Shown: positions 48,097-64,000 of the stretch, one piece after another | Numbering within the stretch: the stretch's first letter is position 1 | Layout: every line of letters begins with the position of its first letter | DNA from: Rhodocyclaceae bacterium | GTDB lineage: Bacteria; Pseudomonadota; Gammaproteobacteria; Burkholderiales; Rhodocyclaceae | Reading direction: 5' to 3' | Assembly: GCA_024709955.1 (NCBI GenBank) | Contig: JANJVS010000033.1 | Span: forward strand, 1 to 64,000 | DNA: 64,000 nucleotides | Position numbers and translations under genes: made by a program | The notes under the pieces: generated by a model | What the model saw: only the letters and a program-made list of their open reading frames with translations | Database searches by the model: none | What the model was told of the DNA's origin: nothing

Positions 48097-48110
48097 TTGA
48101 CCGCCATCAA
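48097..48110 (+). promoter_or_regulatory. FNR/DNR-type box upstream of norC
   Basis: TTGACCGCCATCAA; centre 32 bp from TAGAGT -10-like hexamer (48133-48138). Confidence 0.75.
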
Positions 48111-48182
48111 GGAATAGCGCTACCCCCTTCCGTAGAGTCCCGCCACGCCGCATTCCGTGGCTATCGACAACAAGGGGGCCTT

Positions 48183-58812: not shown

Positions 58813-59424
58813 TCAGCCGGGGAACACGCGGATGGTCGCGGCATCGTCCGCATGCTCCAGCAGCAGACGGCGCACGCGCTCCTGCCAGAGCGCCTGAAAC
58901 TCGCGCCGCTGCGCCGCCGTCGCCACGTCGCCCAGGCACAGGGACATCAGCTCCCCCATGCGCGGATCGCCCGGCACGCGCGACAGATCGGCGGCCGCCT
59001 CCACCGCCGCGCCGGTATCGAGGCGGGTGAAGCGCAAGGCTCCCTGCCGCAGCGCCGCGCCGAAAAACAGCTTGTCGCGGCGGTTGAACCGGCCCGCCAG
59101 GCCGCGGAACCCGCTGTCGGCGGTGGCGCCGGTCAGCAGCGTGGCGACGCTGGCGATCACGCCGGCGACGCCGGCGTCGCGCGCCTCGGCGAGATCCACG
59201 CGGATCTCGCCGCGCGGCGGCAGCTCGCCGCCGTAAAGCGCGGCGAGGGCACGCCGCGTCATGAGGAAGGCGGAGGCCACCGTCGGGCAACTGTGGCCGG
59301 CCAGGCGCACCGCGTCCTCGTAACGGTAGTCGATGACGCCGTCGGCGGCGGCGCCGAGGAATTCGGCGAGCGGATCGCGCAGGCGGATCGTCGGCGCGGC
59401 GGCGAAGAAATCGGGAAAGGTCAT
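58813..59424 (-). CDS. FmdE-like conserved protein
   Basis: AGHSCPTVASAFLMTRRALAALYGG motif. Confidence 0.65.
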   Translation of the reverse strand: MTFPDFFAAAPTIRLRDPLAEFLGAAADGVIDYRYEDAVRLAGHSCPTVASAFLMTRRALAALYGGELPPRGEIRVDLAEARDAGVAGVIASVATLLTGATADSGFRGLAGRFNRRDKLFFGAALRQGALRFTRLDTGAAVEAAADLSRVPGDPRMGELMSLCLGDVATAAQRREFQALWQERVRRLLLEHADDAATIRVFPG

Positions 59425-59483
59425 GGGCGGCGTCCCGCTGGCGTGGAAAGGCGCCAGTCTAGGGACGCGCCGCCGCCGCGGCC

Positions 59484-59497
59484 ATGAGGCGGATCAA
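59484..59497 (-). promoter_or_regulatory. FNR/DNR-type box upstream of FmdE-like gene
   Basis: Minus strand TTGATCCGCCTCAT; centre 32 bp from TAGACT (59456-59461). Confidence 0.5.
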
Positions 59498-60380: not shown

Positions 60381-60647
60381 AGCCTGTTCTCATTCAGGCG
60401 ACGACTGCGAAGGGGGCTGCCGGGTTGCAGGGCAAGGCGGGAGGAGCGCGGTTTGGCCAGTGCCAAATAAGCGACGACCAACGTAGCCATGCGGCCTGGC
60501 AGCCCCCTTCCCGCAGGGTTGCGCGAGCAGTCGCGTCCGCTGCGTTGCACCACTTGCCCGCGGATCACTGCGGGCGGCGCAGTGCGCCTTGCGGCCATCA
60601 CCTGCGCGCACAACGCAGCTCGCCGACTGAATGAGAACAGGCCCTAG
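60377..60647. mobile_element. MITE-like non-autonomous element with TIRs and CTAG duplication
   Basis: CTAG (60377-60380); TIR agcctgttctcattcag (60381-60397) vs reverse complement of ctgaatgagaacaggcc (60627-60643); CTAG (60644-60647); no ORF. Confidence 0.8.
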
Positions 60648-61009
60648 ATCGTCGTCAGCCGCCGCAGCAGGTCGCCCCAGCCGTGGCTGAACAGCACCAG
60701 CAGCGGCACGACGACGACGAACAGGTGCAGCGCGCGGCGGATGCGCGTGTTGGCGCCGGTCATTTCCATGTAGTGGTCGATCACCATGCGCCCCTTGAAG
60801 GCGATCAGCCCGGCGACCACGAAGGCCAGCGGCCAGCCCGCCTCGCCGGTCTCGGCGAGCCAGGCCCCCGCCAGCGTGAGGCCGACCAGCAGCAGCCAGA
60901 TTCGTTCGGCGTGGCCGAGAATGCGCGCAGGGCCGCCCCGAGCGCATTCAGCCCCCCCGTGGGGGGCGGCGAGCAGCTCTTGCGAGCGTGGGGGGCCGAT
61001 ATTGTTCAT
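60644..61009 (-). CDS. NorF-like / cytochrome oxidase subunit IV family protein, second copy
   Basis: MNNIGPPRSQELL...IWLLLVGLTLAGAWLAETGEAGWPLAFVVAGLIAFKGRMVIDHYMEM; ATGA overlap with norE-like gene. Confidence 0.8.
   Translation of the reverse strand: MNNIGPPRSQELLAAPHGGAECARGGPARILGHAERIWLLLVGLTLAGAWLAETGEAGWPLAFVVAGLIAFKGRMVIDHYMEMTGANTRIRRALHLFVVVVPLLVLFSHGWGDLLRRLTTI
60930..60997 (-). repeat. Second repeat family, copy 2, inside norF-like N-terminus
   Basis: Reverse complement ggccccccacgctcgcaagagctgctcgccgccccccacggggggctgaatgcgctcggggcggccc matches 53765-53857 apart from an internal length difference. Confidence 0.75.
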
Positions 61010-61671
61010 CTCAGCACGTAGAAGAAGGGGAAGATCACCAGCCAGATGACGTCGGTGGTGTGCCAATACACCGCCGCCGCCTCCAGCCCGCTGTAGTCGC
61101 GCGACGAATAGACGCCGAGCCCCGTGCGCACGGCCACCCAGGCGAGCCCGAGCAGGCCCCAGCTGACATGCACGAGGTGGTTGAGCGTCAGGTAGTAATA
61201 CACCGTGTAGAAGATGCCCGCCTCGCCGTCGATGCCGCGGGCGACGTTCCACTGGATCTCGAAATACTTGACCAGCGGATAGCCCAGGCCCAGCAGGATC
61301 GCCAGCGCCACCCAGCGCAGGGTGGCCCGGCGCGCGTCGCGGCGGATCGCCTCCACCGCCTTGACCATGCAGTAGCCGCTGGTCAGCAGCAGCAGCGTGA
61401 TGGCGACGCCCGCCACGGTCGCCAGCTTGTCCGGGCCGGTGAGGAAGGCCTCGGGATGGTGGGCCTTGGCGATGAAATAGACGCCGAACAGCAGCAGGAA
61501 CTCCACCAGCACGCAGAAAATGCCGACCCAGATGCCGGTGTTGCCCGGCACGCGGCCATGCTTGTAAACGCGCTCCGGCGGCACGACGCCGGAAGCAGGA
61601 ACCGGCGGGACGGCGCCGGAAGTCGGCGCTGGCGGGACGGTGGCGGCGCTGGGGATTTCCACGATGTTCAT
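61006..61671 (-). CDS. NorE-like cytochrome c oxidase subunit III family protein, second copy
   Basis: GRVPGNTGIWVGIFCVLVEFLLLFGVYFIAKA, LNHLVHVSWGLLGLAWVAV. Confidence 0.88.
   Translation of the reverse strand: MNIVEIPSAATVPPAPTSGAVPPVPASGVVPPERVYKHGRVPGNTGIWVGIFCVLVEFLLLFGVYFIAKAHHPEAFLTGPDKLATVAGVAITLLLLTSGYCMVKAVEAIRRDARRATLRWVALAILLGLGYPLVKYFEIQWNVARGIDGEAGIFYTVYYYLTLNHLVHVSWGLLGLAWVAVRTGLGVYSSRDYSGLEAAAVYWHTTDVIWLVIFPFFYVLR
61570..61642 (+). repeat. Tandem 27-bp array of the dispersed repeat in norE-like N-terminus
   Basis: gaagtcggcgctggcgggacggtg (61619-61642), gaagcaggaaccggcgggacggcg (61592-61615), degenerate third; encodes TVPPAPTSG-AVPPVPASG-VVPPERV. Confidence 0.8.
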
Positions 61672-61706
61672 CGCCGTCAGTGTAAGAGAAGCGTCGGCCC
61701 GGGCGC

Positions 61707-61720
61707 ATGAGCAGGATCAA
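61707..61720. promoter_or_regulatory. FNR/DNR-type box shared by divergent promoters
   Basis: Minus strand TTGATCCTGCTCAT; TACACT (minus, 61679-61684) and TAGACT (plus, 61743-61748) both centred exactly 32 bp away. Confidence 0.6.
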
Positions 61721-61756
61721 GCCGCGTTCGCGCGGGCCGGGCTAGACTGCGCGCCC

Positions 61757-62524
61757 ATGCGCATCCCTGTTCCCCTCCTGCTGCTCGCGGCGGCCACGCT
61801 GGCCGCGCCGGTCCGCGCCGAGACCTGGCGCGAGCCGACCACCGGCATCGAGTTCGTGCGCGTGCCCGGCGGCTGCTATGCGATGGGCGATACCTTCGGC
61901 GGCGGCGACCACAACGAACTGCCGGTGCACGAGGTCTGCGTGAGCAGCTTCTGGATCGGCAGGTTCGAGGTCACGCAGGGGGCATGGGAGAAGCTGATGG
62001 GCGGCAATCCCTCGGCTTATGCGCGCGGCGAAAGCCATCCGGTGGACAGCGTCAACCAGGCCGACATCGAGCAATTCGCGCGGCGGCTCGAAATCATCCA
62101 CGAGACGCGCCGCTTCCGCCTGCCCACCGAGGCCGAGTGGGAATACGCCTGCCGCGGCGGCGGCCGGCAGGTCAAGTTCGGCGGCGAACCGCCGCCCGCC
62201 GGCGCCAACACCGCCGAGTACGCCAACCGGCACGGCGAGGGCAGCACCCCGGTGGGCAGTTTCCCGCCCAACGCGCTCGGCCTGCACGACATGAGCGGCA
62301 ACCTCTGGTAATGGGTCGGCGACGTCTATACGGCGGACGCCTACGCGCGCCATGCGCGCACCGACCCGCGCCACGGCGGCGCCGGCCCGGCGCGCCTGCT
62401 GCGCGGCGGCGCCTGGAGCCACGACGCCTTCTTCGCGCGCTGCAGCAAGCGCCACATGCACTGCCGCCCGACGGCGCGCTTCGACTTCGTCGGCTTCCGG
62501 CTGGTGATGGAGGCGGCGGACTAG
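61757..62524 (+). pseudogene. SUMF1/formylglycine-generating-enzyme-like gene with internal TAA
   Basis: GLHDMSGNLW-TAA(62309-62311)-WVGDVYTADAY...RGGAWSHDAFFARCSKRHMHCRPTARFDFVGFRLVME; same frame on both sides. Confidence 0.75.
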
Positions 62525-62543: not shown

Positions 62544-64000
62544 TCAGTGCGAAGTCCCCTCGGACTTGGTGATCTTGTTGAAGAGGTTGTACTTGCCCAC
62601 CGGCTTGTCCATCGGGATGCGCTTCACTTCCTTGAAGGTCCTGGCGTCGAGCACGATCAGCGCGCCGCCGTCGGCCTTGCGCTCCCACAGGCTCGCCAGC
62701 GCGTACTTGCCGTAGCGGTCGAACTCGATGTGGGCCAGCGTCTTGCCCGGGTCGGTCTTCACCTCGGCCACCTTCTCCAGCGTGCGCTTGTCGATCACCT
62801 GCAGGGTGTCCTTGCCCTTCCGGTCCATCATCGAATCGGTCCAGGCGTAGGGCGTCTCCTCGTGGCTGCGCATGAAGAAGCCGGGACCGAGGGTGGGAAT
62901 GGTCTTGATGGTCTGCCAGTCCTTCATGTCGATCACCGAGATCAGGCCCTCCTTGAGGTTGGGCGAGGCCATCACGCGCTTGCCGTTCCAGTCCCAGGTG
63001 ATGCCCGAGCCGAGGTGGGGCATGCCGGGCATCCGCAGGTCGGCGATCCGCTTGCGCACGTCGAGATTGACCACCTGGCCCTTGCCGGCCTCGCGGCTGG
63101 CGCCCATGAGTTCCGAATAGTCCTGGGTGAAGAAGAAGTCGTCGAGCGGCTCGGAAAGGAAGCTGCGGCGCGGGTTGAGGAAGCCGGGGATGAAGGCGCC
63201 TTCCTTGTACTTGAAGTCGTGCACCATGCCGATCGGGATGTCCTCGGCCCCCGGGTCGTAGCTGACTTCCCAGACCTCGGGCACGTCCTTGAGCGCGGCG
63301 ACGAAGCTCTTGCGCGGCGAGGCGTCGTAGACCGCCGAGACGCGCGAGCTTTCCTTGCCGTTCTTGTCCTTCACCTCATGCACCTTGAGCACGTTGAGCT
63401 CGGCGTCGAGCAGCACCAGGGTATGCGGCAGGTAGTTGGCCACCGCGACGTACTTGCCGTCGCCCGACACCGCGACGTTGCGCGTGTTGATGCCGGCGCG
63501 GATCTCGGCGACGGTCTTGAGGTTCCACAGGTCGAACTTGCTGATCCAGCCGTCGCGCGAGGCGAAGAAGACGTAGCGGCCGTCGGGCGTGAACTTCGGC
63601 CCGCCGTGCAGCGCGTAGCGCGTCGGCACGCGCGCGATGGCTTCGAGCCGGTCGCCGTCCAGCACCGTCACGTGATGGTCGCCGGTCTCGACGACGAGGA
63701 ACAGGTTCATCATGTCCGCGCCCTTGAAGGCGTCGGCGGGTTTATCGGGCAGGCCGGCGAAATGCACCACGCGCGAGGCCTTCATCTGCGCCTCGCTCCA
63801 GGCCGGCGCCGGCACCACCGGCGTGTAGACCCAGTCCACGACGGCCTGGATCTCGGCCTTGGAAAGCTTCTCGGCGAAGGGCAGCATCTGCGTCGCCGCG
63901 CGGCCCTCCGTCACCGTCTGGATCGCCGCCGGCTTGCGCAGCCGCGCCAGGCTCTCGGGCAGCAGCGCCGGCCCGGTGATGCCGAGGCGGTCGGCGCCGT
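62544..64000 (-). CDS. nirN: NirN/cytochrome cd1-type beta-propeller with cytochrome c domain, truncated at window edge
   Basis: Upstream frame reads ADRLGITGPALLPESLARLRKP; propeller motifs FTPDGRYVFFASRDGWISKFDLWNL, GPGFFMRSHEETPYAWTD. Confidence 0.85.
   Translation of the reverse strand, partial: GADRLGITGPALLPESLARLRKPAAIQTVTEGRAATQMLPFAEKLSKAEIQAVVDWVYTPVVPAPAWSEAQMKASRVVHFAGLPDKPADAFKGADMMNLFLVVETGDHHVTVLDGDRLEAIARVPTRYALHGGPKFTPDGRYVFFASRDGWISKFDLWNLKTVAEIRAGINTRNVAVSGDGKYVAVANYLPHTLVLLDAELNVLKVHEVKDKNGKESSRVSAVYDASPRKSFVAALKDVPEVWEVSYDPGAEDIPIGMVHDFKYKEGAFIPGFLNPRRSFLSEPLDDFFFTQDYSELMGASREAGKGQVVNLDVRKRIADLRMPGMPHLGSGITWDWNGKRVMASPNLKEGLISVIDMKDWQTIKTIPTLGPGFFMRSHEETPYAWTDSMMDRKGKDTLQVIDKRTLEKVAEVKTDPGKTLAHIEFDRYGKYALASLWERKADGGALIVLDARTFKEVKRIPMDKPVGKYNLFNKITKSEGTSH

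Follow-up and report, generated by a model that had tools for sequence, protein, structure and literature searches.

The window, by which we mean the whole 64,000-nucleotide stretch of Rhodocyclaceae DNA analysed here, carries two copies of norE, and the second copy (norE2), which is 39% identical to the first, is oriented divergently to a SUMF1-like gene. A norF-like gene overlaps the end of norE2 and presumably belongs to the same operon. The genes and the predicted promoter elements between them are as follows.

61006..61671, minus strand: norE copy 2, COX3-like, 221 aa (Pfam COX3)
60644..61009, minus strand: norF-like gene with a COX4_pro domain (Pfam PF03626)
61757..62311, plus strand: SUMF1/FGE-like gene with an FGE-sulfatase domain (Pfam PF03781), which reads as having a signal peptide
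61707-61720, unstranded, centre 61713.5: Crp/Fnr-type box ATGAGCAGGATCAA (minus-strand reading TTGATCCTGCTCAT), common to both putative promoters
61684..61679, minus strand, centre 61681.5: -10 hexamer TACACT of norE2, 7 nt before the ATG
61743-61748, plus strand, centre 61745.5: -10 hexamer TAGACT of the SUMF1-like gene, 8 nt before the ATG

In the window, the SUMF1-like frame is closed by an in-frame TAA (62309-62311) after 184 codons, following the residues NLW, and past this codon it stays open and ortholog-like up to a TAG at 62522-62524. The orthologs in four congeners (G004, G012, G016, and G017) have Glu (GAG) at the position of the TAA; because TAA and GAG differ at two bases, a single read error is less likely in this draft assembly. 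The gene may yield a shortened protein, or it may be undergoing decay. A literature search found no paper supporting the name NirV for the SUMF1-like protein, which is therefore left as a member of the PF03781 family. This gene is convergent with a gene at 62544-63998 that runs out at the end of the window and encodes a NirN- or NirS-like protein in which a c-type-like N-terminal part is joined to a cytochrome d1 domain. On the opposite side, norF is adjoined by a MITE-like element of 266 bp (60381-60646) with terminal inverted repeats (GCCTGTTCTCATTCAG), of which near-complete copies (93-98%) and fragments are found on many contigs of the draft genome.

One box between two predicted divergent promoters

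The start codons of norE2 (ATG at 61671, minus strand) and of the SUMF1-like gene (ATG at 61757, plus strand) are separated by 85 bp, and the box at 61707-61720 is the sole Crp/Fnr-type box between them, lying at a class II distance to both. The order across the 85 bp is ATG, 7 nt, -10, 22 nt, box, 22 nt, -10, 8 nt, ATG. The original prediction placed this box exactly 32 bp from a minus-strand TACACT and from a plus-strand TAGACT, and the coordinates confirm it: by direct reading of the sequence, 32 bp separate the box centre from the centre of each hexamer, with a spacer of 22 nt on both sides. Compared with TTGAT-N4-ATCAA, the box matches 8 of the 10 specified bases (two mismatches), one half-site (ATCAA) being perfect and the other (ATGAG) off consensus. 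No -35 hexamer was found on either side, where at most two of six bases match at 16-18 nt. Promoters of the activator-dependent class II type often have no -35, so its absence on both sides is what would be expected of them. The locus combines a 14-bp box resembling TTGAT-N4-ATCAA, a distance of 32 bp to each -10 (corresponding to about -41.5), no -35, and a genome that encodes regulators with the E..SR motif.

Boxes with two or fewer mismatches are common in the window (17 against ~6.4 expected), so that a box alone proves little. A box followed by TANANT at 21-23 nt was found three times in the window, whereas a shuffle gave 0.02 on average. The window's four box/-10 pairs (at norC, at an FmdE-like gene, and two at the shared box) all have a spacer of exactly 22 nt. 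The two-sided layout occurs in the window at 61707-61720 only, and it did not appear once when the window was shuffled 60 times or the local 170 bp 20,000 times. Genome-wide tests were pattern searches, and the genomes compared were mostly MAGs, the window's own genome (G000) being a draft of 237 contigs. In a looser form, the symmetric two-sided pattern was found at this locus only among 121 genomes of the family, a sample that left out the congener G016, which also fits it. The strict form (TTGAY-N4-RTCAA with TANANT on both sides) was found in 0 of 299 family genomes, indicating that perfect symmetry of this kind is not widespread in the family.

From these data and the comparisons below, we propose, with a probability of about 0.78, that a single Crp/Fnr-family dimer at 61707-61720 works as a class II activator both of norE2-norF, to the left, and of the SUMF1-like gene, to the right. 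Under low oxygen or denitrifying conditions, the box would be occupied by Fnr or by an NO-responsive relative of the Dnr-like type; with its centre 32 bp from each -10 and a predicted position of -41.5 to each start, the box would permit class II activation both ways of the two promoters without -35. Each transcript would begin at its ATG or no more than ~2 nt away, giving leaderless mRNAs, and the one dimer might serve the two polymerases either together or in turn.

The asymmetric box and its candidate regulators

A close norE2 is present in the genome of the window and in nine congeners. In four of these (G012, G001, G011, and G016), the norE2 promoter reads TTGAT-N4-CTCAT, 22 nt, TACACT or TAAACT, 6-7 nt, and ATG, while no such module precedes norE2 in the other five (G017, G002, G004, G005, and G006), in most of which norE2 begins inside the tail of a preceding reading frame or directly abuts it. 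Outside the genus, the module was found before norE2, always with 22 nt, in Sulfurisoma sediminicola, G141, Candidatus Nitricoxidireducens bremensis, and two MAGs titled Gammaproteobacteria. On the side facing the norE2 -10, the box carries CTCAT and not ATCAA, except in the two most distant cases, the MAGs titled Gammaproteobacteria, which have CTCAA.

A search of 19 congeners for TTGAT-N4-CTCAT-N21-23-TANANT gave 10 matches, compared with none for the reversed-pattern control, and all 10 are located at norE2, menE-like, or FmdE-like genes. The window itself has such an asymmetric box at its FmdE-like gene, with ~31 nt from the -10 to the ATG, and a near-consensus box at norCB, a gene that appears to have an ordinary leader:

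59484-59497, minus strand: asymmetric box TTGATCCGCCTCAT of the FmdE-like gene (58813-59424), 22 nt before TAGACT at 59461..59456
48097-48110, plus strand: near-consensus box TTGACCGCCATCAA of norCB, exactly 22 nt before TAGAGT at 48133-48138

A menE-like AMP ligase gene is preceded by the same asymmetric box, with the same spacing and a short distance from the -10 to the ATG, in G002, G004, G016, and G017 and in members of other genera (G070, G141, and G154). Its promoter reads TTGATYNNNCTCATG, 22-23 nt, TANAAT, 6-8 nt, and ATG (L051, L054, L057, L058, L209, L210, and L214; box near position 1501 in each). The gene heads a cluster resembling menE-menF-menD, an assignment made by reading the translated sequences, and menaquinone synthesis may belong to the same anaerobic regulon. 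In the wider family, the few pattern matches before other genes (G067, G126, and G128) may be unrelated. The asymmetric box TTGATY-N3-CTCAT, common to norE2 and the menE-like gene across several genera, is possibly new.

Which protein would read this box is a matter of several candidates. Among the proteins encoded in the genome is an Fnr that has the Fe-S sensor cysteines expected of it and the recognition motif LETVSR, and that passes the NCBIfam cut-off for Fnr. There are also several proteins of the Dnr-like type, whose E..SR recognition helices read PETLSR, PESLSR, or PEALSR. Assigning the regulator by presence and absence was tried and abandoned, as Fnr and several Dnr-like groups are encoded both by genomes that have the box and by genomes that lack it. 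One of the Dnr-like groups (G000 C58) appeared only in box-bearing genomes (G000, G001, G002, G004, and G017), and it was not found in G011, G012, and G016 among the proteins fetched.

One alternative keeps the same two-way geometry and has TTGATY-N3-CTCAT read not by Fnr or a standard Dnr but by a distinct Crp/Fnr-family regulator, or with the help of another factor that contacts the CTCAT half. Promoters of norE2 and of menE-like genes retain the proximal CTCA from genus to genus, whereas ATCAA, GTCAA, and others stand there in further boxes of the same geometry, and G000 has several Crp/Fnr proteins; the left half TTGAT, the N4 spacing, and the E..SR helices are nevertheless those of ordinary Fnr/Dnr, and the presence/absence comparison gave no candidate tracking the box, which makes a distinct regulator unlikely in our judgment. 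Somewhat less doubtful, and still tentative, is the broader idea that TTGATY-N3-CTCA(T/A)-N22-TANNNT-N6-8-ATG could be a distinct module for leaderless norE2 and menE-like mRNAs in several Rhodocyclaceae-related genera and some MAGs titled Gammaproteobacteria, in which the conserved off-consensus half-site would be the signature of a Crp/Fnr regulator, or pair of regulators, dedicated to it, and which would have become a two-way switch in two species.

Both directions and the predicted leaderless starts

On the SUMF1-like side, conservation is narrower. The divergent pair is kept in G016, which has TAAACT exactly 22 nt from the box on this side as well. In G012, the SUMF1-like gene lies ~8 kb from norE2 and has a box of its own (TTGATCGGGATCAT, 22 nt, TACACT, 8 nt, ATG), and in G017 and G004 it sits closely behind another gene. 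The divergent arrangement of norE2 and the SUMF1-like gene was thus found in two species only, G000 and G016; since these are not sisters in the norE2 tree, it either is ancestral and has been lost many times or has two separate origins. Absence of the box from relatives was one of two outcomes that the original prediction named as refuting it, and this outcome did not occur: the box, the 22 nt, and the -10 are kept before norE2 in G012, G001, G011, and G016, with both sides retained in G016 and one side each in the other relatives. The further claim that one dimer could serve both directions is also supported, at the level of sequence and analogy, by the two-sided arrangement of G016, the separate box of the SUMF1-like gene in G012, the lack of a -35, and a precedent in Dinoroseobacter shibae.

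If the box served norE2-norF only, the plus-strand TAGACT would be a chance hexamer and the SUMF1-like gene would be transcribed otherwise or not at all, as might be suspected from the wide conservation of the norE2 side alone and from the stop within the rightward frame. We regard this as quite improbable, because the SUMF1 side of G016 retains TAAACT at a distance of exactly 22 nt despite a drifted spacer, because the separated gene of G012 has its own box at 22 nt, and because the hexamers found at the mirror position of norE2 promoters without a divergent partner (CATTGA, CAGCGG, and CAAAGT in L053, L055, and L056) do not resemble a -10.

Because the -10 hexamers lie only 7 and 8 nt before the ATGs, the norE2 and SUMF1-like mRNAs predicted for this two-way site are probably leaderless. 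The lack of a Shine-Dalgarno sequence agrees with this type of start. Leaderless genes have been demonstrated by transcript mapping in Burkholderia cenocepacia (PMC4603805) and in Cupriavidus metallidurans (PMC7563307), in the latter of which they account for 4.67% of primary starts (PMC7563307). The present promoters resemble those genes in having a predicted start at or just before the start codon and a TA-rich motif directly upstream, and differ from them in that the evidence here is the sequence itself and that each of the two promoters also has a class II box.

It is very unlikely, we think, that the true translation starts lie downstream and that the mRNAs have ordinary leaders, even though the NorE2 N-terminus is poorly conserved and alignments often begin at residues 10-38. 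The signal peptide of the SUMF1-like protein starts at this very ATG in both the window and G016, and a distance of 6-8 nt from the -10 to the ATG was seen at all norE2 and menE-like boxes examined. Moreover, in 400 kb of G017 the occurrence of TANANT before ATG peaks at 6 nt, with seven of seven cases being without an SD-like sequence, which suggests that a minor class of leaderless-type genes exists in the genus. Two further explanations were rejected: a chance box, which is ruled out by the shuffles and the relatives, and ordinary sigma-70 promoters with -35 and -10, none of which was found in the region.

Precedents and significance

The study of bidirectional sites in D. shibae is reportedly that of Ebert and co-workers from 2017. 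In the nirS-nosR2 region of this species, one Fnr/Dnr box lies 39.5 and 41.5 bp from two starts, and reporters for both directions were dependent on DnrD and partly on FnrL, while mutation of the box was reported for the nirS direction only (PMC5398030). A similar bidirectional site was described for hemA3-dnrE (PMC5398030). The present locus shares with nirS-nosR2 the arrangement of one Fnr/Dnr box between two divergent denitrification genes or operons. It differs in its genes and in the bacterial class, in an asymmetric box (TTAAC-N4-GTCAA in D. shibae), in the equal 32/32 spacing to the -10s, in the 85 bp between the start codons, and in its probably leaderless mRNAs. In Rhodobacter sphaeroides, site-directed mutagenesis demonstrated that a single CtrA site activates the divergent promoters fliL2p and fliF2p (PMC6180460); this is likewise a single activator site for two divergent promoters, except that CtrA is unrelated and the function is flagellar. 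A bidirectional single Fnr/Dnr site is therefore already known, by reporters in D. shibae, and the present locus is a further case.

With 85 bp, one box, equal spacing, and no -35, the locus offers a small, well-defined setting in which to test how two polymerases can be served by a single activator dimer, and relatives carrying each half alone provide natural controls. The proposed site would place the second norEF copy and the SUMF1-like gene in the anaerobic regulon. The asymmetric box shared with the menE-like gene could help to find members of the regulon in uncultured denitrifiers, and a dedicated regulator or pair behind a distinct module, if true, would link NO respiration to menaquinone synthesis.
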